Positions 11,667-43,319 of a stretch of 52,857 nucleotides of DNA are shown here, piece by piece. Location: assembly GCA_029561305.1 (NCBI GenBank), contig JAKQJG010000025.1:1-52857 (forward strand), given 5' to 3'. Made by a program: the position numbers and the translations under genes. How positions within the stretch are numbered: the first letter of the stretch is position 1; each line of letters opens with the position of its first letter. The notes under the pieces were generated by a model. It saw nothing but the letters and a program-made list of their open reading frames with translations. It did no database searches and was not told where the DNA came from. This DNA is from Bacteroidota bacterium (GTDB taxonomy: Bacteria; Bacteroidota; Bacteroidia; Chitinophagales; Chitinophagaceae).

Positions 11667-11699
11667 CACCCCCTCCGCCCCCTGAAGGGGGAACTATGG
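11667..11699 (-). repeat. CCTCC palindromic repeat after lpxA
   Basis: It starts 1 nt after the lpxA stop. An outer CCCCCTCCG is followed by the hairpin CCCCC-TGAA-GGGGG (11678-11691) and the tail AACTATGGTGC. The same tail, with two changes, follows nuoM at 41800-41808. This is the stop-side orientation. Confidence 0.75.
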
Positions 11700-11865: not shown

Positions 11866-11887
11866 TTCCCCTTTAGGGGATAGGGGT
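11866..11887 (+). repeat. CCTCC palindromic repeat touching the ABC ATPase start
   Basis: CCCC-TTTA-GGGG (11868-11879) followed by ATAGGGGT, ending directly at the ATG at 11888. This is the start-side orientation and pairs with the copy after lpxA, so the two bound a 222-bp spacer. Confidence 0.65.
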
Positions 11888-32382: not shown

Positions 32383-32733
32383 ATGGGAGCAGCTTCAATG
32401 ATTGTTTTAATTCTTGCCGGGCTGACCTTTGGTGTGATTGCGGTCTTAATCTCAAAGATTGTGAACAAGGGCAGTACCAATAAACAAAAGGGACAACCTT
32501 ATGAGTGCGGCATACCCACCCAAGGCAAAACCTGGATGCAACTGAATGTGGGCTATTACCTGTTTGCCCTTATTTTTTTAATCTTCGATGTAGAATTGGT
32601 TTTTTTATACCCCTGGGCAGTGGTGGCAAAAAAAGTTGGTTGGTTTGCGCTGGTGGAAGTGATCATTTTCTTTTTCATTTTATTTATGGGATTTTTATAT
32701 GCACATAAAAAAGGTGCGTTGAAGTGGGTGTAG
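32383..32733 (+). CDS. nuoA: NADH-quinone oxidoreductase subunit A
   Basis: A 116-residue membrane subunit of complex I with three transmembrane helices. The hallmark loop between helices 1 and 2 is present (GQPYECGIPTQGKTWMQLNV, with the conserved Glu-Cys), followed by YYLFALIFLIFDVELVFLYPW, whose Asp and Glu lie in the proton/quinone region. It is the first gene of the nuo cluster. A palindromic repeat begins 1 nt after the stop and the gap to nuoB is unusually long. Confidence 0.96.
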   Translation: MGAASMIVLILAGLTFGVIAVLISKIVNKGSTNKQKGQPYECGIPTQGKTWMQLNVGYYLFALIFLIFDVELVFLYPWAVVAKKVGWFALVEVIIFFFILFMGFLYAHKKGALKWV

Positions 32734-32734
32734 A

Positions 32735-32770
32735 ACGCCTCCCCACCCTCCAAAGGAGGGATTTAAGACA
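32735..32770 (-). repeat. CCTCC palindromic repeat after nuoA
   Basis: GCCTCCCCA followed by CCCTCC-AAA-GGAGGG (32746-32760) and the tail ATTTAAGAC, starting 1 nt after the nuoA stop. Stop-side orientation. Confidence 0.75.
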
Positions 32771-32882
32771 GGCGTACTATGATGTAAAATGATATATTTT
32801 TTGTTGGCATTAAGGTCCATAGTATTTCAAATATCATTGATGGCAAATGAATAATACTGCAAATAATTCTCAGGGTCCAGAA

Positions 32883-32920
32883 GTCCCCTCCTTGGGAGGG
32901 GATTTAGGGGAGGCTTTTCC
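32883..32920 (+). repeat. CCTCC palindromic repeat in the nuoB 5' region
   Basis: TCCCCTCC-TTG-GGAGGGGA (32884-32902) followed by TTTAGGGGAGGCTTTTCC. Start-side orientation, paired with the copy after nuoA. It lies inside an open frame that continues into nuoB, where it would encode [12 protein letters not shown]. Confidence 0.75.
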
Positions 32921-32936
32921 TGGTCAGGTACATGAC

Positions 32937-33428
32937 ATGCCAGGTGGTGGCGTAATGCTGAGTAAGCTGGACGACCTCATCAATTGGGCAAGATCCAACT
33001 CTCTATGGCCGCTGACTTTTGCCACGAGTTGCTGCGGTATTGAGTACATGTCTGTTGCCGGCGCCCGGTACGATTTTTCACGATTTGGTTTTGAAGTAGC
33101 CCGTGCCTCTCCAAGACAGGCAGATGTAATTATTATTGCCGGCACCATTGTAAATAAAATGGCACCGGTATTAAAAAGATTATACGACCAGATGGCCGAT
33201 CCTAAATATGTAATTGCAATGGGTGCATGTGCTATCAGTGGCGGTCCATTTTTTTACAATACCTATTCCGTAGTGAAAGGGGCAGATCATATAATTCCCG
33301 TGGATGTATACGTTGCTGGTTGTCCACCGAGGCCAGAAGCATTGATACATGCGCTGATGACATTGCAGGAAAAAATTAAAAGTGGCTATACAAGAGAACA
33401 GTTGCCCCAAAAACTGAAAGGGACATAA
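32937..33428 (+). CDS. nuoB: NADH-quinone oxidoreductase subunit B
   Basis: The subunit that holds iron-sulfur cluster N2, the last cluster before quinone. The tandem Cys pair is in [10 protein letters not shown], the others in [11 protein letters not shown] and [11 protein letters not shown]. The open frame runs further upstream to an ATG at 32847 (193 residues), but that extension contains a palindromic repeat and is not family-like. From the ATG at 32937 the product is 163 residues and begins [19 protein letters not shown], where the conserved part of NuoB starts. If the longer start is used, the repeat is translated in frame. Cluster N2 ligation looks intact. Confidence 0.93.
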
Positions 33429-33600
33429 AGAACAAGGTCCTGAAATTTGTGGTGGCTATTGAGTAAATGAAGTGTTTTAAATGATATAGAATATAGATGT
33501 GGTTGAAAATACCTACAACAAAAGTCAAATAAAAAAATAATACCCTGCCAGCTTCTTACCGAAAGCATTCGGGATAGAGGAACCGGGGATGCGATGTCCA

Positions 33601-34059
33601 ATGACCAACGAAGAACTGAAAATAAAAATTGCCGAACTGCTGCCTGCTGCCATCTTTGATGAGGCTGGCGAATTCACTGCCGTTAATGTGGATGCGGCTG
33701 ATTGGAAAAATTTTTCAAGGCAATTGCATTTTGATGAAGCCCTTCAATTTGACTTTCTTTCCTTTCTTACATGTATAGATTTTAAGACACATCTTACGAT
33801 GCTGTATCATTTCGATTCTTATACTTTTCATCATAACCTGGTTGTAAAAATTAAATTAGATGCTGCCAAACCCGAAGTGGAAACGGTGAGTGATATATGG
33901 CAGACGGCTAATTTTCATGAACGGGAAGTGTATGAATTATTTGGCGTTCATTTTATTAATCATCCTGATTTGCGGTTACTGATTTTGCCGGATGGTTGGG
34001 AAGGAAAGAATCCATTGAGGAAAGATTTTGAAGATGCGGTAAATATGATAAAGTTGTAA
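33601..34059 (+). CDS. nuoC: NADH-quinone oxidoreductase subunit C
   Basis: A 152-residue peripheral-arm subunit. FDFLSFLTCIDFKTHLTMLYH and VETVSDIWQTANFHEREVYELFGVHFINHPDLR are the NuoC hallmarks (HEREVYDLFGI-type motif), with LPDGWEGKNPLRKDF at the C-terminus. The start MTNEELK at 33601 is preferred; an in-frame ATG at 33589 adds only MRCP. nuoC and nuoD are separate genes here, not fused. Gaps of 172 bp before and 165 bp after it are long for a nuo operon. Confidence 0.95.
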   Translation: MTNEELKIKIAELLPAAIFDEAGEFTAVNVDAADWKNFSRQLHFDEALQFDFLSFLTCIDFKTHLTMLYHFDSYTFHHNLVVKIKLDAAKPEVETVSDIWQTANFHEREVYELFGVHFINHPDLRLLILPDGWEGKNPLRKDFEDAVNMIKL

Positions 34060-34137
34060 AACGCCTCAAAGCATGGATTGGGTTTCGTTAGTTAGCGGGA
34101 GTTTTTGAAATTATGATAAAGAACGCAATCAAAATAG

Positions 34138-34172
34138 CAAAGCTCCATAGGAGCGGCAGTTTGGTAGAACAA
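34138..34172. repeat. AGCTCC-AT-AGGAGC dispersed repeat
   Basis: In the nuoC-nuoD gap, GCTCC-AT-AGGAGC with the tail GGCAGTTTGGTAGAA resembles a repeat I recall as very common in Bacteroidota intergenic DNA. It is not of the CCTCC type found in the neighbouring spacers. Confidence 0.5.
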
Positions 34173-34224
34173 CAAAGAAAAAAGGCCTGGCCAATAAAAA
34201 TAAAAAACGGTTTGTAACAACGGA

Positions 34225-35370
34225 ATGTACAGGGAAACAACGATAGTAGCGGATGAAAATCAAAACCTTGCTGCAAAGGAGGCTGGAGATTTCATCATCA
34301 ACGTAGGGCCGCAACATCCTGCTACGCATGGTGTGTTGCATTTAGTGATTACGCTGAATGGAGAAACGATCAAAAAAGTAGAACCTCACCTGGGTTTCAT
34401 TCATCGTTCCATCGAAAAAATGTGTGAGAGCCTCACCTACCGGCAATTTATTTATGTTACCAGCCGGATGGATTATCTATCTTCTCACATCAACAATCAC
34501 GCCTGTGCTTTGTGTGTTGAAAAAGGCATGCAGGTAGAAATACCAGGAAGAGCAAAAGTGATACGGATATTGATGGATGAACTGACAAGGATCGCATCGC
34601 ATGAATTATGGCTGGGTGCTATGGCAATGGATCTTGGTGCATTCACGCCTTTCTTTCATACGTTCAGGGAAAGGGAACTCATCAATGATATCATGGAAGA
34701 AACCTGTGGCGCAAGATTAACGATGAACTATATCGTACCGGGTGGTGTGATGCAGGATATTCATCCCAATTTTCAAAAAAAGGTAAAAGATTTTGTAAAA
34801 CAGTTCACCTCCAAGATCGGCGAGATGGATGAGATAGTAACCGGCAATACGATCTTTCAAAACCGGATGAAAGGCGTGGGTATATTATCAAAGGAAGATG
34901 CGGTTTCATTTGGTTGTACGGGCCCGGCTGCAAGAGGCAGTGGCGTTAGCTGTGATACAAGAAAGATATTTCCTTATGAGGGGTATGAAAAATTACAGTT
35001 TGATGAAATTCTGGAAAATGGCTGTGACTCTTTTGCCCGGTATATGATCAGAATCCGGGAGATGCAGCAATCTATCAGGATCATTGAGCAACTCATCGAT
35101 AATATTCCGGAAGGGGATTTCCAGGCAAAAACAAAAGCCGTGATCAAATTACCCAAAGGTGAATTTTATCAACGGGTGGAAACAGCGAGGGGGCAATTTG
35201 GAGTGTTCATTGTGAGTGAAGGAGGTACTACGCCTTACAGGATCAAGTTCCGTTCGCCTGGCTTTTCAAACCTGAGTGCGCTGGATCATATGGCAAGGGG
35301 TAGTAAGCTGGGAGATTTGGTGGCGATGATGGGAACACTGGATTTGGTAATACCGGATATTGACAGATAG
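34225..35370 (+). CDS. nuoD: NADH-quinone oxidoreductase subunit D
   Basis: A 381-residue 49-kDa-type subunit forming the quinone site with NuoB. INVGPQHPATHGVLHLVITL contains the quinone-proximal His loop. LGFIHRSIEKMCESLTYRQF, DYLSSHINNHACALCVEKG, RILMDELTRIASHELWLGA and the C-terminal SALDHMARGSKLGDLVAMMG are family blocks. The length is normal. The next gene is nuoH: no nuoE, nuoF or nuoG lies between them, where 14-gene operons carry them. A palindromic repeat begins directly after the stop. Confidence 0.96.
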   Translation: MYRETTIVADENQNLAAKEAGDFIINVGPQHPATHGVLHLVITLNGETIKKVEPHLGFIHRSIEKMCESLTYRQFIYVTSRMDYLSSHINNHACALCVEKGMQVEIPGRAKVIRILMDELTRIASHELWLGAMAMDLGAFTPFFHTFRERELINDIMEETCGARLTMNYIVPGGVMQDIHPNFQKKVKDFVKQFTSKIGEMDEIVTGNTIFQNRMKGVGILSKEDAVSFGCTGPAARGSGVSCDTRKIFPYEGYEKLQFDEILENGCDSFARYMIRIREMQQSIRIIEQLIDNIPEGDFQAKTKAVIKLPKGEFYQRVETARGQFGVFIVSEGGTTPYRIKFRSPGFSNLSALDHMARGSKLGDLVAMMGTLDLVIPDIDR

Positions 35371-35400
35371 CCCCTCCGCCCCCTAAAGGAGAGTAAGGCA
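35371..35400 (-). repeat. CCTCC palindromic repeat after nuoD
   Basis: CCCCTCCGCCCCCTAAAGGAGAG immediately after the nuoD stop, then the AAGGCAaGcG segment that is shared with the nuoI-nuoJ spacer. Stop-side orientation. Confidence 0.7.
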
Positions 35401-35482
35401 AGCGTAAAAAATCTGGAGTGCTTTCCGGGATGCGAATTGGATGGTAAAATACTTTGACGAAATAATATAAATTAAAAATAAA

Positions 35483-35502
35483 CTCTCCGCTGGTTAGCAG
35501 AG
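35483..35502 (+). repeat. Palindromic repeat touching the nuoH start
   Basis: CTCTCCGCTGGTTAGCAGAG, a hairpin with a GCT/AGC core related to the one at 37223-37240. It ends directly at the nuoH ATG and closes the spacer opened by the copy at 35371. Confidence 0.5.
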
Positions 35503-36588
35503 ATGGGGCAAATGATAAGCTTATCAGAGATATCGAAAATTATAGACAATTGGTTAAGGGCAACCTTTAATCCAACATGGACGCTGATCATTGAAATGGT
35601 GATTGCCGGTGTTTGTGTGATTGGATTGTTTGCGGTACTGGGATTGGTGCTGGTGATCATGGAAAGAAAAGTGTCTGCGTGGATACAGATACGGTTGGGA
35701 CCAAACCGGGTAGGACCAAAGGGAATGTTTCAATCGATGGCTGATACAGTGAAATTATTGGTGAAGGAAGGATTGACACCGGATGGTGCGGATAAATTTT
35801 TGTTCAACCTGGCGCCCCTCATCGCCATTGTAGTAGCGATGTTACTGATGGCGCCCATCGCTTTTGCAAGGGATTTTCAAATGTGGGATATCAATATTGG
35901 TGTGTTGTATGTATCAGCGGTATCGTCAGTAATGGTCATCAGTATCCTGATGGCAGGCTGGGCTAGCAATAATAAGTATTCTTTGCTCGGTGCTATGCGA
36001 AGCGGTGCACAGATAGTGAGTTATGAATTATCAGCCGGCTTATCGATCATCGCAATTGTTATATTAACCGGCAGCTTAAGTTTTAATGAGATCGTTCATT
36101 CGCAGGTGGATGGCTGGTGGATCTTTAAAGGACACATTCCTGTGCTGATTGCATTTGTAATTTTTATCATTGCGGCAACCGCTGAAACCAACAGGGCGCC
36201 ATTCGACCTGGCAGAAGCAGAGTCTGAATTAACAGCAGGCTTTCATACAGAATATTCGGGGATGAAGTTTGCTCTCTTCTTTTTAGCAGAATATGTAAAC
36301 GTATTTATTGTATGTGCTATCGGGGCTACCTTATTTTTAGGTGGATGGATGCCGTTTCACATCGGTAGCTGGCAAGGCTTTAACCAGGTAATGGATTATA
36401 TTCCATCAAGTATCTGGTTTATGGGAAAAACATTTTTTCTTATTTTCCTGATCATGTGGTTCAGGTGGACTTTTCCAAGATTACGGATTGACCAGTTGTT
36501 GAATTTGGAATGGAAATATTTATTACCGATCAGTATGTTTAACCTGTTGCTGGTAACGGCGATGGCTATATTGGGTTGGCATTTTTAA
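35503..36588 (+). CDS. nuoH: NADH-quinone oxidoreductase subunit H
   Basis: A 361-residue membrane subunit that links the quinone cavity to the proton-pumping arm. ERKVSAWIQIRLGPNRVGPKG is the signature loop. ADTVKLLVKEGLTP and ETNRAPFDLAEAESELTAGFH follow; the latter carries the conserved acidic E-channel residues. About eight transmembrane helices end in a C-terminal FRWTFPRLRIDQLLNLEWKY. The start at 35503 directly follows a palindromic repeat. A second ATG at 35512 is equally possible. Confidence 0.96.
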   Translation: MGQMISLSEISKIIDNWLRATFNPTWTLIIEMVIAGVCVIGLFAVLGLVLVIMERKVSAWIQIRLGPNRVGPKGMFQSMADTVKLLVKEGLTPDGADKFLFNLAPLIAIVVAMLLMAPIAFARDFQMWDINIGVLYVSAVSSVMVISILMAGWASNNKYSLLGAMRSGAQIVSYELSAGLSIIAIVILTGSLSFNEIVHSQVDGWWIFKGHIPVLIAFVIFIIAATAETNRAPFDLAEAESELTAGFHTEYSGMKFALFFLAEYVNVFIVCAIGATLFLGGWMPFHIGSWQGFNQVMDYIPSSIWFMGKTFFLIFLIMWFRWTFPRLRIDQLLNLEWKYLLPISMFNLLLVTAMAILGWHF

Positions 36589-36620
36589 ACCTCACCTCAA
36601 AGGAGGATCGAGCCAGGAGT
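36589..36620 (-). repeat. Degenerate CCTCC repeat after nuoH
   Basis: ACCTCACCTCAAAGGAGGATCGAGCCAGG starts directly after the nuoH stop. It matches the nuoA copy in order (CCTC, ACC, TCCAAAGGAGG) but is decayed. Confidence 0.5.
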
Positions 36621-36699
36621 TCTAGATTCTGAATTGTCAGTGAAATAAAAGAAATAATTATTTTATTATGAGAAGAGTTTTAAATTATCAGTGTCTAAA

Positions 36700-36735
36700 G
36701 GCCTCCCCCTTTGGGGGAGGTTTGGAGGGGGCTTT
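36700..36735 (+). repeat. CCTCC palindromic repeat touching the nuoI start
   Basis: A perfect hairpin, CCTCCCCC-TTT-GGGGGAGG (36702-36720), then TTTGGAGGGGGCTTT, ending directly at the ATG at 36736. Start-side orientation and the best-preserved copy. Confidence 0.8.
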
Positions 36736-37212
36736 ATGTTTTTAATAAACTATATAAAAACTGTTTTTTCAACCGTCAAATCTATGCTGGTGGGGATGCG
36801 GCGTACCGGTTATTATTTTACCCATCACAAAGAGATCATTACAGAGGAATACCCCGACAACAGGGAAACCATGCATCTCCCGGAACGGTTTAAAGGGGAA
36901 GTAGTGATGCCCCACGATGAAAAGAATGAGCACCGCTGCACGGGATGCACTGCCTGCGAGCTGGCTTGCCCAAATGGAACGATTAAAGTAGTGACCAAAT
37001 TTGATATCACACCGGAAGGAAAGAAAAAGAAAGCGATTGACAAATTGGTATATCATTTAGAATTATGCACCATGTGCAACCTATGTATTGTGGCATGTCC
37101 ATCTGATGCTATCAAGATGGCACAGACATTTGAACACAGTGTATTTGACCGGAGCCAGCTCACAAAAGTGTTGAATAATCCAGGTTCAAAAATTATGGAT
37201 GGGGTGGAATAA
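36736..37212 (+). CDS. nuoI: NADH-quinone oxidoreductase subunit I
   Basis: A 158-residue ferredoxin-like subunit with clusters N6a and N6b. The two 4Fe-4S motifs are CTGCTACELACP and CTMCNLCIVACPSDAIKM. The start is set at 36736 (MFLINYIKTVFSTVKSM), the amphipathic N-terminal helix typical of NuoI. An in-frame ATG at 36691 would add only translated repeat (GLPLWGRFGGGF) and is rejected. In complexes that lack NuoEFG, NuoI is the exposed end of the iron-sulfur chain and is the likely docking site for reduced ferredoxin, as in photosynthetic NDH-1. Confidence 0.95.
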   Translation: MFLINYIKTVFSTVKSMLVGMRRTGYYFTHHKEIITEEYPDNRETMHLPERFKGEVVMPHDEKNEHRCTGCTACELACPNGTIKVVTKFDITPEGKKKKAIDKLVYHLELCTMCNLCIVACPSDAIKMAQTFEHSVFDRSQLTKVLNNPGSKIMDGVE

Positions 37213-37250
37213 CCCCCTCCGCCCCCGCTAGCCAGCGGGGAACCAAGGCA
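37213..37250 (-). repeat. CCTCC palindromic repeat after nuoI
   Basis: CCCCCTCCG followed by CCCCGCT-AGCC-AGCGGGG (37223-37240) and AACCAAGGCA, starting directly after the nuoI stop. Stop-side orientation. Confidence 0.75.
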
Positions 37251-37363
37251 GGTGATCAAAAATGTAGGGTGCTTGCCGGGTTGCGGTGTATGGGAATTTT
37301 GTGGATTAAAGAACAAATGAAGATGTGGAAGATAAAATGTTTATAAAGGGTTGAAGTACTATG

Positions 37364-37401
37364 CCTTCTCTTTTGGAGAGGGGATAAGAGGGATGAGGCT
37401 G
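37364..37401 (+). repeat. Degenerate CCTCC repeat before nuoJ
   Basis: CCTTCTCTTTTGGAGAGGGGATAAGAGGGATGAGGCTG keeps the start-side order (palindrome, then GAGGG, then GGCT). It ends 41 bp before nuoJ. Confidence 0.55.
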
Positions 37402-37442
37402 TTGAAGATAAAATGAATTTATATCCAAGAACTAACTAATAA

Positions 37443-37985
37443 ATGACCGGCTCAACAATTATATTTTACCTGCTCGCCTTGCTTACTTTAGTAAGTGCGG
37501 TGCTGGCAGTTACCTCCAGGCAAATATTCCGTGCAGCTATTTATTTATTGTTTACCCTTATTGGTATAGCAGGTTTTTACTTCTGGATGCAGTACGATTT
37601 TATTGCCGCCGTTCAGATCATCGTTTATGTTGGCGGCATTACAGTACTGATCATCTTTTCTATTTTCCTGACACAGCAGGCGGGTGAATTATTACCCAAA
37701 CAGAAAATAGGCAGGCAGGTATTTGCAGCAGCGGCAGTGTTCTGTTCCTTTGCGCTGGTAATGCTGCAGATGATCAATCATCATTTCACTGTTACAGCAG
37801 ACCAATCCACAACTCCAACCATTGCAGCAATTGGAGAAAAAATGCTGGCCACTACCGAAGACGGCTATGCGTTACCGTTTGAAGTAGTGAGTATTTTATT
37901 ATTGGCTGCCATGATCGGCTGCATTGTAATAGCCATGCGGCCGGAGGATACATTACCGAATGAACAAGACTTGCAACAAAAATGA
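37443..37985 (+). CDS. nuoJ: NADH-quinone oxidoreductase subunit J
   Basis: A 180-residue membrane subunit with five transmembrane helices. ALLTLVSAVLAVTSRQIFRAA and FIAAVQIIVYVGGITVLIIF include the conserved helix 3 with the pi-bulge region. Its last four bases overlap nuoK (ATGA), indicating translational coupling. From here on the nuo genes are packed tightly, unlike A to I. Confidence 0.95.
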   Translation: MTGSTIIFYLLALLTLVSAVLAVTSRQIFRAAIYLLFTLIGIAGFYFWMQYDFIAAVQIIVYVGGITVLIIFSIFLTQQAGELLPKQKIGRQVFAAAAVFCSFALVMLQMINHHFTVTADQSTTPTIAAIGEKMLATTEDGYALPFEVVSILLLAAMIGCIVIAMRPEDTLPNEQDLQQK

Positions 37986-38296
37986 TAACACCCGGACTAT
38001 ACCACATATTATTTATCAGTACTGCGCTGTTCTTTATTGGTATGTATGGTTTTTTTGCCAGGAAGAACCTGATCACCATGCTGATGAGCATTGAGTTGAT
38101 TTTAAACAGTGTGAACCTGAATTTTATCGCATTCAACAAATACCTGTGGCCGGGCAGGCTGGATGGGGTTTTCTTCACGATTTTTATTATTGCCATTGCA
38201 GCAGCGGAGGCCGCCGTTGCCATTGCCATCATCATTAATTTATACCGGTCACACAAGTCAATTGATGTGGAGCAAACAGAAGAAATGAAATACTGA
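37982..38296 (+). CDS. nuoK: NADH-quinone oxidoreductase subunit K
   Basis: A 104-residue three-helix subunit of the MrpC type. The conserved membrane Glu residues lie in LITMLMSIELILNSVNLNF and in AAAEAAVAIAIIINLY, part of the proton path. It overlaps nuoJ by 4 bp and ends 2 bp before nuoL. Confidence 0.96.
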   Translation: MITPGLYHILFISTALFFIGMYGFFARKNLITMLMSIELILNSVNLNFIAFNKYLWPGRLDGVFFTIFIIAIAAAEAAVAIAIIINLYRSHKSIDVEQTEEMKY

Positions 38297-38298
38297 TT

Positions 38299-40254
38299 AT
38301 GTCAAATGCATTACAAATAGCGCTGATCCCCTTATTGCCACTGGCAGCTTTTGTGATATTGGGTTTATTCGGAAATAAATATGTTAACCGGTCTGCCGGT
38401 ATCATCGCAACCTTTTTGCTTGCCTCCTCTGCAGCACTTGCTTTTTACACGGCCTACCAATATTTTTTTGAATACGGAAAGGTGGAGGGTGTTTATCAAA
38501 AAGTAACCGCATTTAAATATACCTGGCTGCAATTTTCTGATCAGTTATCCATTGATATCGGTGCATTAATAGATCCCATCACCGCGATGATGCTGGTGGT
38601 GGTTACTTTTATTTCATTATTGGTTCATATCTACAGCCTGGCTTATTTAAAAGGAGAAAAGCGCTTTGCAACGTACTATGCCTTTCTTGGACTCTTCACT
38701 TTTTCCATGCTGGGATTGGTATTGTCTTCGAACATTTTTCAAATGTATATTTTTTGGGAACTGGTAGGCGTCTCCTCCTTTTTACTGATTGGTTTTTATT
38801 ACGATAAACCCAGCGCAGTGGCGGCCTGTAAAAAAGCGTTTATTGTTACCCGTTTTGCAGACCTGGGTTTTTTAATCGGCATCCTGGTCCTTTCTTTTTA
38901 TGCAGGAACACTGGATTTTAACACGCTGATTGAGCGCCTCACTTCTTTACAGTCCGCTGAATTTAAAATGGCAACGGCTGCATCGTTCATGGGAATTTCT
39001 GCATTAACATGGGGATTGGTGCTGGTGTTTATTGGCGGCGCAGGTAAAAGTGCCATGTTTCCTTTGCACATTTGGTTGCCGGATGCCATGGAAGGCCCCA
39101 CACCGGTATCTGCATTGATACATGCAGCAACGATGGTGGTAGCCGGTGTTTTTTTAGTGGCAAGATTATTCCCGGTTTTTCAAATATCTCCAATCGCAAT
39201 GGATGTGGTGGCATATACAGGAATAATTTCTGCGTTGATTGCAGCGGTAATAGCTTGTACACAAACAGATATAAAAAGAGTGCTTGCTTATTCTACTATG
39301 TCGCAAATTGGCTTTATGATGTTTGCATTGGGGGTATCAAAAACAGGCGGAGAAGCCGGACTTGGTTTCACTGCTTCGATGTTTCATTTGTTTACCCATG
39401 CTATGTTCAAAGCATTGCTGTTTCTTGGAGCAGGCGCTGTGATACATTATGTACACAGCAACGAGATGAAAGATATGGGTGGCTTAAGGAAGTACTTACC
39501 CATTACCCATATCACTTTTTTAATTGCCTGTTTAGCCATTTCCGGTATTCCTCCATTTGCAGGTTTCTTTAGTAAAGAAGAAATTTTACTGGCAGCGTAT
39601 CATCATTACCCGGTTATTTTTTATACCGCCCTTATTACCTCGGGCCTCACTGCATTTTATATGTTCCGTTTATATTTCAGTATTTTCTGGAATAAACAAA
39701 CGCAGGTGCATAGTGAACATTCCGCCCCACATGATTCGGAGAAGCATGGTGAAGGCGGCTTGGCCATGATGTTACCGCTCATCGTATTGGCAATGGCGTC
39801 CTGCCTGGCCGGCTTTATTCATTTTGGAAATTTTGTTACGGCGGATGGAAAGCCTTTGACAACAGCATTGCACCTGTTGTTTTCAGTGGCACCGGTAGTG
39901 TTGGCATTGGCCGGTATCGGCATCGCAACATGGTTGTTCCTGCGTCAAAATGATAGCCCGGTTAAGTACTCAAATAAATTGGGCAACCTGTACAAAGCAG
40001 CCCATCAAAAATTTTATATTGACGAACTATACGGCTTCATCACCCAAAAGATAATTTTTAATTTGGTTGGAAGACCGGCAGCCTGGTTTGATAAAAATAT
40101 TGTTGATGGCCTGGTGAATGAAACAGGTAACGGTACCACCACGCTGGCAGAAAAGATCAAAGCTTTTCAATCAGGTAAAGTGCAACAGTATGCAATATAT
40201 TTTTTAGGAGGCGTAATGGGACTGACCGTGCTGTTTATTTATTTATGGAAGTAA
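38299..40254 (+). CDS. nuoL: NADH-quinone oxidoreductase subunit L
   Basis: A 651-residue antiporter-like proton-pumping subunit at the far end of the membrane arm. IYIFWELVGVSSFLLIGFYY carries the TM5 Glu. GGAGKSAMFPLHIWLPDAMEG has the TM7 Lys, and LIHAATMVVAGVFLVARLFP and FTHAMFKALLFLGAGAVIH the TM8/TM12 residues. The C-terminal extension (about 560-651) fits the lateral helix and anchor. Length is usual. Confidence 0.96.
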   Translation: MSNALQIALIPLLPLAAFVILGLFGNKYVNRSAGIIATFLLASSAALAFYTAYQYFFEYGKVEGVYQKVTAFKYTWLQFSDQLSIDIGALIDPITAMMLVVVTFISLLVHIYSLAYLKGEKRFATYYAFLGLFTFSMLGLVLSSNIFQMYIFWELVGVSSFLLIGFYYDKPSAVAACKKAFIVTRFADLGFLIGILVLSFYAGTLDFNTLIERLTSLQSAEFKMATAASFMGISALTWGLVLVFIGGAGKSAMFPLHIWLPDAMEGPTPVSALIHAATMVVAGVFLVARLFPVFQISPIAMDVVAYTGIISALIAAVIACTQTDIKRVLAYSTMSQIGFMMFALGVSKTGGEAGLGFTASMFHLFTHAMFKALLFLGAGAVIHYVHSNEMKDMGGLRKYLPITHITFLIACLAISGIPPFAGFFSKEEILLAAYHHYPVIFYTALITSGLTAFYMFRLYFSIFWNKQTQVHSEHSAPHDSEKHGEGGLAMMLPLIVLAMASCLAGFIHFGNFVTADGKPLTTALHLLFSVAPVVLALAGIGIATWLFLRQNDSPVKYSNKLGNLYKAAHQKFYIDELYGFITQKIIFNLVGRPAAWFDKNIVDGLVNETGNGTTTLAEKIKAFQSGKVQQYAIYFLGGVMGLTVLFIYLWK

Positions 40255-40304
40255 ACCGGATTGTAATAACTGGTTAAAACAAAAAAGCTGGTAAAAAAAA
40301 TCGA

Positions 40305-41783
40305 ATGAATTTATTACTACTCATATTGATTCCGCTAGTTACAGCAGTTGGGGTTTTGCTGGCGGCAAAGCAGCAGGCTAAATGGATCGCTTTTGGAGGT
40401 GCTGCCATCCAGTTGATCACTTCTTTTGTTTTACTGGCAGCGTTTTATGCTCAAAGGACTGCAGGCAATACCACGCAATTCCTGTTTGAACAGCAATATA
40501 ACTGGTTCCCGTCATTGAACATATCGTTCCATTTAGGTGTGGATGGAATCTCTGTCGCCATGATATTGCTCACCGCTTTCGTAGTGATTGCAGGTGTGCT
40601 GGTTTCCTGGAAAGTGGATAAGATGACGAAAGAGTTTTTCTTTCTTCTTATACTGCTCAGTTTGGGTGCATACGGTTTCTTTATTTCATTAGATCTGTTT
40701 ATCCTGTTCTTCTTTTTAGAAATTGCTGTGATTCCAAAGTATTTGCTGATCGGTATCTGGGGCAGCGGCAAAAAGCAATATGCAGCCAACAAACTCGCCC
40801 TGCTGCTGATGTTCGGCTCAGCGTTGGTGTTAGTAGGGATGATGGGTACTTATTTTGGCAGTGGGGCGCATACATTTGACCTGCCCGCATTGGCCAAACT
40901 GAATATGCCGGTGGAGGTGCAGAAGATTTGCTTCCCGCTGTTGTTTGCCGGCTTTGGCATTTTCACCGCTTTGTTTCCTTTTCATACCTGGGTGCCTGAT
41001 GGACATTCGGCTGCGCCAACAGCGGGGTCTATGTTTTTGGCAGGTATCTCTATGAAATTGGGTGGTTATGGCTGTTTGCGTGTAGCCATGTACTTAATGC
41101 CTGAAGGCGCAAAAGAGTATGCCAATATCATCATTATATTAGCAACGATCGCTATTTTATATGGAGCTTTTGCCACCATGATGCAGCAGGATTTTAAATA
41201 CATCAATGCATATTCATCCGTAAGCCATTGTGGATTTGTATTGCTTGGGCTGGGTATGCTTACGAAGACTGCCATTACCGGAGCCGTGATGCAAATGGTT
41301 AGTCATGGTGTAATGACAGCCCTGTTCTTCGCCATCATCGGTATGATATACGAACGCACACACACCAGGCAGGTCAATGAAATGGGCGGGTTGCTGAAAG
41401 TAACCCCGTTTATATCCACGGCATTATTTATTGTTGGTTTGTGTTCGCTCGGTTTGCCGGGCCTCAGCGGCTTTGTTGCAGAGATGACCGTTTTTGTTGG
41501 CTCCTGGCAAAATGCAGATGCCTTTCACCGGATCGCAACCATTGCAGCCTGTATGTCTATTGTTGTAACAGCAGTATATATTTTAAGGGCCATCGGCAAA
41601 GTGGCGATGGGGCCATTGAAAGCAGGCTACGAAACGATTACAGATGCCACCTGGAACGAACGGCTTGCAACCATCATTTTAATTAGTGGAATATTAGCGA
41701 TAGGGCTGGCGCCGTTTTGGTTAAACGACCTGGTAAGGCCAGGAGCGGAGATCATCATGCAAAAAATGTCAGCCTCCCACTAA
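40305..41783 (+). CDS. nuoM: NADH-quinone oxidoreductase subunit M
   Basis: A 492-residue antiporter-like subunit. FLEIAVIPKYLLIGIWGSGK has the TM5 Glu, ALFPFHTWVPDGHSAAPTAGS the signature loop before TM8, and SVSHCGFVLLGLGML and SHGVMTALFFAIIGMIYERT the later channel residues. A degenerate palindromic repeat starts directly at the stop codon. Confidence 0.96.
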   Translation: MNLLLLILIPLVTAVGVLLAAKQQAKWIAFGGAAIQLITSFVLLAAFYAQRTAGNTTQFLFEQQYNWFPSLNISFHLGVDGISVAMILLTAFVVIAGVLVSWKVDKMTKEFFFLLILLSLGAYGFFISLDLFILFFFLEIAVIPKYLLIGIWGSGKKQYAANKLALLLMFGSALVLVGMMGTYFGSGAHTFDLPALAKLNMPVEVQKICFPLLFAGFGIFTALFPFHTWVPDGHSAAPTAGSMFLAGISMKLGGYGCLRVAMYLMPEGAKEYANIIIILATIAILYGAFATMMQQDFKYINAYSSVSHCGFVLLGLGMLTKTAITGAVMQMVSHGVMTALFFAIIGMIYERTHTRQVNEMGGLLKVTPFISTALFIVGLCSLGLPGLSGFVAEMTVFVGSWQNADAFHRIATIAACMSIVVTAVYILRAIGKVAMGPLKAGYETITDATWNERLATIILISGILAIGLAPFWLNDLVRPGAEIIMQKMSASH

Positions 41784-41808
41784 CTCCCTAAACGGGGAAC
41801 TTTGATGC
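41784..41808 (-). repeat. Degenerate CCTCC repeat after nuoM
   Basis: CTCCCTAAACGGGGAACTTTGATGC directly after the stop. The GGGGAACT-TTG-TGC tail matches the copy after lpxA. No clear start-side partner precedes nuoN. Confidence 0.5.
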
Positions 41809-41921
41809 ATGACATTTTAAGTGTTTGCTAAAATTGCAGAGAGTGGGTGCCTTTGCAGAAATAATGAACTGACAAAATGCTAACCTGAACGAAAAGTACG
41901 GGTGAGATCAAAAAGTAACTG

Positions 41922-43319
41922 ATGAATGAGTTTTTCACATTAATGAAATCTGAACTGGTGGTCACCATCATCCTTTTCCTGTTGTTGTTTATCAAAATAG
42001 GCAAGGGGATGAGCAATGAGCGGCTGCTGGTTTTTATCCAGGTCCTGCTGCTCATCAATTTTATTGCAGGTTTTGTTGCAAATGAAGAGGGCAGTTTATT
42101 TGGAGGATTATATTATACCGGTGAAATGATCGTGTTGCAAAAAAATATTTTGAATTTGGGGGTTTTGCTGATTTCATTATTGTTTGCTGATTGGTTTATT
42201 AAAAGCAGCCACCTGCCCGAATTTTTTATTTTGATGTTGTCTTCATTACTGGGTATGTTCTTTTTGTTATCCAGTGGCAACCTGCTGATGTTTTATCTAT
42301 CGCTGGAGTTAGCCTCTATACCAGTTGCCGCAATGGCCAATTTCGACCTGCAAAAAAGAACCTCCTCCGAGGCAGCGATGAAAATGATCCTGACTTCCGC
42401 ATTTTCTTCCGGCATTTTGCTGTTTGGTATATCATTGGTATATGGCGCAACCGGCACCATTAGTTTTGAAGCGCTGCCGGCGTTGTTGTCTGCTGCTCCG
42501 TTACAGGTGATGGCCTTTATATTTTTGTTTGCAGCATTTGCATTTAAGTTATCGATCGTGCCTTTTCATTTGTGGACAGCAGATGTTTACCAGGGCTCAC
42601 CCACTGCCACCACTGCTTTTTTATCCGTCATTTCAAAAGGTGCATTTGCATTTGTATTCGTAACGGTATTATACAAAGTTTTTCAGCCACTGCATTCTGT
42701 ATGGTACAATCTCATCATGTTGTTATCCATTGTAACCATGATCGTCGGTAACCTTTTTGCTTTGCGGCAGCAAAATATCAAACGCTTCCTTGCATTTTCT
42801 TCCATAGCGCAGGTAGGTTTTATTTTAGTGGGTATCAGCAGCAACACCGCAGAAGGCACAGCATCGGTTGTTTATTTTATTTTGATCTACATCTTTTCTA
42901 ACCTGGCTGCATTCGGGGTTGTGGGGTTGATTGCTTCACAGGCAAATAGAGAATCCATCAATGATTACCGGGGATTATATCAAACCAATAAATTTTTAAG
43001 CTGGATGATTGCGCTGGCCCTGTTTTCTTTAGCAGGCATTCCGCCAACAGCTGGGTTCTTTGGAAAATTATTTTTGATAAAGGCAGGGGCATCGCAGGCC
43101 AATTACTTCTACATCATCATTGCAGCAGTAAACCTGGTAGTATCGCTGTACTACTATCTAAAAATTATCAGGGCAATATTTATGGAACCCAATGAGCAAC
43201 CTATTGCTGCCATCCGGGTTTCTTTTTCAGTAAAATTAGGATTGGTGATTTGTGCAGCAGGTATTATACTGACCGGGCTGATCGGTTGGATCTATGATTA
43301 CATTCAATTGTTGGGTTAG
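41922..43319 (+). CDS. nuoN: NADH-quinone oxidoreductase subunit N
   Basis: A 465-residue antiporter-like subunit. LLMFYLSLELASIPVAAMANF has the TM5 Glu, FKLSIVPFHLWTADVYQGSPT the TM7 Lys and loop, and FLAFSSIAQVGFILVGISSN and LALFSLAGIPPTAGFFGKLFL the later blocks. It is the last nuo gene. A small gene of unknown function follows on the same strand. Confidence 0.96.
   Translation: MNEFFTLMKSELVVTIILFLLLFIKIGKGMSNERLLVFIQVLLLINFIAGFVANEEGSLFGGLYYTGEMIVLQKNILNLGVLLISLLFADWFIKSSHLPEFFILMLSSLLGMFFLLSSGNLLMFYLSLELASIPVAAMANFDLQKRTSSEAAMKMILTSAFSSGILLFGISLVYGATGTISFEALPALLSAAPLQVMAFIFLFAAFAFKLSIVPFHLWTADVYQGSPTATTAFLSVISKGAFAFVFVTVLYKVFQPLHSVWYNLIMLLSIVTMIVGNLFALRQQNIKRFLAFSSIAQVGFILVGISSNTAEGTASVVYFILIYIFSNLAAFGVVGLIASQANRESINDYRGLYQTNKFLSWMIALALFSLAGIPPTAGFFGKLFLIKAGASQANYFYIIIAAVNLVVSLYYYLKIIRAIFMEPNEQPIAAIRVSFSVKLGLVICAAGIILTGLIGWIYDYIQLLG

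Follow-up and report, generated by a model that had tools for sequence, protein, structure and literature searches.

Palindromes near the ends of bacterial genes are already known from several systems. REP elements are described near stops and in ORFs, and Rickettsia palindromic elements (RPEs) in frame in ORFs (PMC3733652). Equally known are the EDxHD homing endonucleases (PMC3943268), and one section on inteins places a DUF559 gene among them (PMC9403480). Here we analyse palindromic elements that resemble each of these in part. Like REP/BIME with RAYT, they are short, paired palindromes near stops and sometimes in ORFs (PMC3733652), but they have no GTAG/CGTC tag and no RAYT neighbour, and the nuclease that goes with them has a different fold. 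Like RPEs, they insert in frame in coding genes and give short peptides (PMC3733652), but their sequence and host are other and the complete copies carry an endonuclease gene. They share with MITEs inverted ends mostly 60-250 bp apart and at least one copy that looks like a gene-bearing one with its interior deleted; the parent, however, encodes an endonuclease and not a known transposase, and no target duplication was recognised. Finally, the nuclease resembles I-Bth0305I, among the free-standing or intron-borne EDxHD homing endonucleases, in profile and fold, in being the sole protein recognised in the element and in sitting in conserved genes. It differs in that no intron or intein was recognised, the inverted ends are palindromic, miniature copies exist and the host frame or junction is kept. 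Among the literature matches listed, in a coverage that leaves most subscription literature outside, no title or opening of an abstract connects DUF559 to palindromic ends or to miniature forms.

The window, the whole stretch of 52,857 nt that was analysed, is contig C243 of a Ferruginibacter-like assembly (4.83 Mb, 443 contigs; the "own genome" below). Within the named collection its NuoH is closest to those of Ferruginibacter and further Chitinophagaceae. Palindromes at the gene spacers of its nuo operon were confirmed, with slightly corrected coordinates (Table 1). The preliminary description had placed the stop-side copies 0-2 nt after the stops, which is right for nuoD, nuoI and nuoH; those of lpxA and nuoA lie somewhat farther away and the nuoM palindrome overlaps its stop. 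The antisense copies that were said to end exactly at the starts of the ABC, nuoH and nuoI genes come close to them, yet these first distances were somewhat optimistic. As for the copies reported near nuoB and nuoJ, the second does lie upstream of its gene, whereas the first is in frame inside the initial codons of nuoB, not ahead of the start; similar peptides are present in relatives (L075, L084, L087). The nuoH ATG that we used agrees with relatives, and an upstream ATG falls within the element. The nuo cluster (window 32383-43319; loci L053-L132) runs from nuoD directly to nuoH, with a gap of at most 517 nt in the 75 loci measured, so that nuoF and nuoG do not lie between them.

Table 1. 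Element ends in the window and their distance to neighbouring codons
Feature	Position	Strand	Relation to gene
Canonical element end CCCCCTCCGCCCCCTGAAGGGGGAAC	11669..11694	+	3 nt past lpxA stop (11665); lpxA named by NCBIfam
Element end CCCCTATCCCCTAAAGGGGA	11867..11886	-	1 nt 5' of ABC-ATPase start (11888); ABC family match
Element end CCTCCCCACCCTCCAAAGGAGGG	32738..32760	+	4 nt past nuoA stop (32733)
Element end within NuoB frame, encodes 13 residues	32884..32913	-	Among first codons, in frame
Element end, begins CCCCTCCGCCCCCTAAAGGAG	35371..35394	+	0 nt past nuoD stop (35370)
Degenerate element end, different hairpin core CTCTCCGCTGGTTAGCAGAG, CCCC-type tip (by eye)	35483..35509	-	2 nt 5' of nuoH ATG (35512)
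Element end CCTCACCTCAAAGGAGG	36590..36606	+	1 nt past nuoH stop (36588)
Element end CCCCCTCCAAACCTCCCCCAAAGGGGGAGG	36702..36731	-	4 nt 5' of nuoI ATG (36736)
Element end CCCCCTCCGCCCCCGCTAGCCAGCGGGGAAC, tip unchanged, hairpin loop different	37213..37243	+	0 nt past nuoI stop (37212)
Degenerate element end (by eye)	37364..37398	-	~44 nt 5' of nuoJ ATG (37443)
Degenerate element end (by eye)	41772..41800	+	Overlaps nuoM stop (41781-41783)

A search pattern drawn from the nuoI copy gave 5 sites only, and we therefore adopted for counting the canonical form CCCCCTCCG-CCCCC-TAAA/TGAA-GGGGG-AAC. With at most one mismatch, CCCCCTCCGCCCCC has 22 genome-wide matches, and the reversed pattern has 1. 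A hairpin-plus-leader detector, which misses degenerate copies, found 19 sites in the 368,698 bases of the window and 20 own-genome stretches, against 4 in one Markov-shuffled control. The copies are often paired in inverse orientation with their C-rich tips facing outwards, terminal inverted repeats on a short element as in MITEs; the loci scanned contain 71 such tip-outward pairs, of which 51 span 60-250 bp, mostly 100-150 bp. Other end types share this layout but differ in letters (CCCCTATCCCCTAAAGGGG; CCTCACCCCnnCCCCTCTCC; CCTCCCTGCCCTCC). In 90 of 93 copies an A or a G directly precedes the tip. A Shine-Dalgarno reading of GGAGG before ATG was set aside; several ends have no GGAGG. We also noticed a second, A/T-rich spacer family (AATAATGAACA..GAACAAGGAATATCGAA, with GTTTAAGG-like repeats) in nuo junctions of L055, L057, L081, L118, L123 and others, again with inverted ends near stop and start, to which no nuclease is linked.

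The codon-adjacent placement noted in the window recurs in other genomes of the genus. Among 93 copies from seven same-genus genomes, some of them orthologous (der, miaB and nuo junctions) and thus not independent, 83 touch a codon boundary, provide a gene's stop or sit in frame within a gene. In 44 the tip lies 0-10 nt past a stop, in 8 it lies 0-12 nt from a start, in 14 the element's own TAA or TGA terminates the gene that it overlaps, 2 overlap a gene otherwise, and 15 are in frame within a coding frame, some near the N-terminus, as RPEs are; the remaining 10 have none of these positions. If copies were spread uniformly over 190 spacers, 8% of tips would fall within 0-10 nt; the observed median distance to the neighbouring gene is 3 nt on the tip side and 121 nt on the hairpin side. 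Gene starts and ends for these counts come from a simple codon-based caller built for this analysis. The copies are from the own genome (19, versus the 22 genome-wide matches, under other mismatch limits), G021 (30, that is 28 listed matches and 2 more diverged ones), G013 (23 of 36), G035 (8 of 12), G009 (5 of 8), G043 (6 of 8) and G042 (2 of 7); copies less than 150 nt from a locus start or less than 200 nt from a locus end were excluded, and other element-bearing genomes are outside the count. Single-hairpin copies also occur within genes. In the own genome, for example, a chorismate synthase loop holds PPPPPEGGT where the nearest relatives have a few different residues (28 of 30 loci readable), and the length of this loop varies in more distant relatives. 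Simple internal deletion does not explain these single-hairpin copies.

Canonical ends are patchily distributed: they were found in 13 of 98 genomes, all 13 within the own genus (59 genomes including the own), with 1-36 copies each, and the reversed pattern was found in none of the 98. Across 80 nuo loci the genes keep the arrangement A-B-C-D-H-I-J-K-L-M-N as far as each contig reaches and the arrangement is readable (L124 shows nuoH only), and each junction varies between loci from overlapping or a few nt up to hundreds; at nuoI-nuoJ the commonest gap is -1. Because the copies are patchy between species and the orthologous junctions are often a few nt long or overlapping, they are insertions. 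Comparison of orthologous spacers in relatives reveals empty sites, and the mobile element of MITE or REP type envisaged in the preliminary description is borne out by the patchy distribution, the empty junctions, the inverted ends and one internally deleted copy. That it inserts at gene ends describes many copies, but others lie in frame inside genes; abutment needs no end-seeking mechanism, since ancestral junctions are often of a few nt or overlapping. No target-site duplication was recognised by eye in the sequences compared (LeuS/MetG sites, miaB loci).

Could the palindromes instead be conserved RNA hairpins, serving processing, stability or translational coupling of cistrons and maintained by selection rather than moved? 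Processing and stability hairpins had been offered at the outset, and the two ends of one spacer are indeed more complementary to each other than to the ends of other spacers: an inverted-repeat match joins them in 18.2% of 192 spacers (60-450 nt, score >=12), against 6.1% with ends of other spacers and 3.4%, 1.6% and 0% in three further controls, so that stop and start would stand at the foot of a possible stem. Such hairpins are nevertheless a barely credible reason for the existence of the palindromes, given their patchiness among species of one genus, the copies in frame inside coding frames, the empty orthologous junctions and the absence of any Rfam match within the window. This leaves room for a secondary use of the elements as RNA structure.

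Classical REP/BIME elements, with RAYT (Y1) transposases as mover, are also short, paired and near stops, and GTAG REPs are reported as stop suppliers and inside ORFs (PMC3733652). RAYT-family (PF01797) matches are present in 22 of the 26 genomes searched, and ~480 bp separate one of the own RAYT genes from a degenerate copy of canonical type. Against this origin, which we hold highly improbable, none of the 29 RAYT genes with enough flank (of 34 loci) has an element end on either side, and the canonical ends read CCCCCTCCG-hairpin-AAC, with no GTAG or CGTC tag. Moreover, three own RAYT loci were read, and two of them lie within arrays of different palindromes. The suggested link to RAYT-type transposases is therefore not supported, and we reject RAYT as the mover. 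The two own RAYT genes (L001:1880-2350, L002:1100-1450) adjoin arrays of GTCCCTACGGGAC and GCTCCGTAGGAGC, the usual REP/RAYT layout.

The palindromic ends are associated with a different gene. In the own genome an inverted pair encloses a DUF559 gene (PF04480, by Pfam; L034), and we followed this association in 81 DUF559 domains, the best matches of genus and order searches together with fetched stretches and not all matches, of which 76 have 260 nt of flank on both sides and 77 have 200 nt. Tip-outward ends stand on both sides in 50 of the 76 (left in 58, right in 61), and at least one side is without a detected end in 26; by comparison, both ends were found around 2 of 3,000 random anchors (2 of 1,500 in nuo loci, 0 of 1,500 in the own sample) and around 0 of 143 anchors elsewhere in the DUF559 loci. 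Left and right ends are more similar within a DUF559 locus than to those of other loci (0.736 vs 0.464; 0/2,000 permutations, 51 loci). End type goes with nuclease similarity when all pairs are taken (r 0.430, 0/1,000 permutations) and weakly so between different host genes (r 0.156, 3/1,000). Among the loci scanned, 20 tip-outward pairs have a separation of 250-2,500 bp, and DUF559 is the only mobile-type protein recognised by eye within them. PF04480 is found at E 1e-10 in 44 of 93 genomes of the genus and at E 1e-15 in 111 of 298 genomes sampled from the order.

Ten residues are invariant in 50 aligned DUF559 domains, those within host frames included, which suggests that the active site of an EDxHD/Vsr-like catalytic domain is kept. 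The predicted fold (mean pLDDT 81) matches 3hrl, a DUF559-like protein (E 4e-7), the only structure that passes E 0.001; the catalytic domain of I-Bth0305I (3r3p) matches by profile (E 1e-6) and, more weakly than 3hrl, by fold (Foldseek E 3e-3, TM-score 0.70-0.81 on target). A role in defence was rejected: three DUF559 proteins have only weak PADLOC matches, the best of which (1.4e-5) is to a 'homing endonuclease' model.

Many of these nucleases lie inside host reading frames. Open frames of at least 300 residues contain 51 of the 68 same-genus DUF559 matches, and in the loci read the nuclease shares a frame with LeuS at 25 loci and two or more sites, with MetG at 9 loci and two sites, with MetH at 5 and with Acs at 4, as well as with IcmF, IleS, a MurU-like nucleotidyltransferase, MnmE, HsdR, HemE, TrpA, UvrA, CinA and ArgB (families assigned on cluster representatives, several loci being from the order and not the genus). 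A LeuS frame with an insertion at one site has none at the second, and reciprocally; for MetG the empty state is seen one way, at site 2 only (L248). These in-frame insertions, facing empty alleles in relatives at two LeuS sites and MetG site 2, are directly observed and have the character of homing endonuclease genes in conserved host genes. In 7 fused ORFs scanned, Pfam gives host domains, DUF559 and a weak MTES_1575, with no intein splicing domain around the nuclease. The nuoA end CCTCCCCACCCTCCAAAGGAGGG is of the same type as an end beside DUF559 in the MetG insertion of the own genome (L272). An Acs frame of 973 residues in G013 (L276) holds DUF559 twice, apparently through two insertions into the same gene.

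Between miaB and a sigma-54-type regulator, the canonical ends of the window are tied to a complete unit. Genome G098, a single contig with 20 canonical copies in total, has there (locus L332) a DUF559 gene enclosed by two canonical ends, one of which is altered at its last base; one tip yields a MiaB ending PSAP-stop and the other is 5 nt 5' of the next ATG. At the orthologous junction of G021 (L168) a short element keeps both ends, and its interior encodes the last 28 DUF559 residues (28 codons of the C-terminus, 68% identity, E 3e-9). This internal deletion from a gene-bearing element, as known for MITEs, is seen at one locus only, L168 against L332. At 30 other loci (G021 included) the junction is 3-12 nt in 13 and 31-60 nt in 3, has element ends in 4 (L375, L386, L392, L393) and is longer without a clear element in 4 (L373, L385, L387, L388); in 6 no adjacent regulator was found. 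By eye, element ends with differing contents occur 5' of the regulator in six genomes (G098, G021, G052, G036, G040, G042; loci L332, L168/L386, L375, L392, L393, L212), and this junction is possibly a preferred site. A search of 293 spacer sequences, some loci being represented twice, gave one clear DUF559 remnant and one doubtful one (E 0.007), with 0 in the reversed control. With a single clear remnant locus, the majority of miniature copies must be old, strongly reduced or formed in another way. Sub-terminal sequence is shared with a complete element in 7 of 93 copies at score >=14, compared with 0.9% of shuffled ones.

The same tie is seen between genomes for one DUF559 clade, clade A, which takes in the matches at E <= 2e-27 to L278; this threshold was chosen after the matches were seen. 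Clade A is present in 8 of 59 genomes, and all 8 have canonical copies, against 5 of the 51 others (Fisher 6e-7; 5e-6 if G007 is counted, which falls just outside with 46% identity and E 2.4e-25 and has no canonical copy). In a further 34 genomes canonical copies occur in 2 of 3 with clade A and 6 of 31 without it, which is not significant (p 0.13); over all 93 genomes the counts are 10 of 11 and 11 of 82 (p 4e-7), the clade A genome without a canonical copy being G106. The presence of a DUF559 gene of whatever clade has no predictive value for canonical copies (p 0.21).

We therefore consider it probable that an endonuclease-borne family of inverted-repeat elements with miniature derivatives is at work, which DUF559 would copy in a homing-like manner. 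The palindrome would be one end of a mobile element that consists of a C-rich outer tip, a short hairpin, an interior, a second hairpin and a second tip. Complete elements would carry the DUF559 gene, for a putative EDxHD/Vsr-type endonuclease related to I-Bth0305I; relatives without it would be the gene-junction copies, mostly 60-250 bp, and the single-hairpin copies in genes. DUF559 may cut the target, and repair may copy the element in. Its ends, being short, readable in frame and provided with a stop in one frame, would be tolerated in junctions, gene ends and loops. Copies would survive only where host frames survive (in junctions, at gene tips through the element's own stop, at N-termini and in loops) and others would be lost. 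Such a filter, acting on ancestral junctions of a few nt, would leave elements that abut codons.

The palindromes may also have spread otherwise, by an unseen transposase or by template switching in replication, with DUF559 a homing parasite that lands on them and uses them as passenger ends. Most spacer interiors are without DUF559 trace, 11 of the 82 genomes without clade A have canonical copies, single-hairpin copies exist, and the A/T-rich spacers have inverted ends in a similar layout with no nuclease linked, all of which would fit. We think such a separate route unlikely, however, as canonical ends stand on a complete DUF559 unit with a deleted copy at the orthologous site, and as no other mobile-type protein was recognised by eye in those 20 tip-outward pairs.

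If DUF559 does drive the copying, then a widespread domain that is still "unknown" in Pfam would gain a likely and directly testable role. Such elements could account for unassigned intergenic palindromes in the own and related genera, and for peptides such as VPPLGGGGG or SPLERAGGEV within conserved proteins. They would also represent mobile DNA that tolerates residence in aminoacyl-tRNA synthetase genes without splicing. We lean, by somewhat better than an even chance, towards a distinct class of Bacteroidota mobile element, in which an EDxHD-type DUF559 between palindromic ends readable in frame would enter essential genes without splicing and shed miniature copies that rebuild junctions, stops and starts across operons. 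The ends themselves may be modular: at window positions 37213-37243 and in L187 (GCTAGCCAGC; CGCCAGCTGGCAG) the hairpin cores differ under one tip, as if cores had been swapped as modules.
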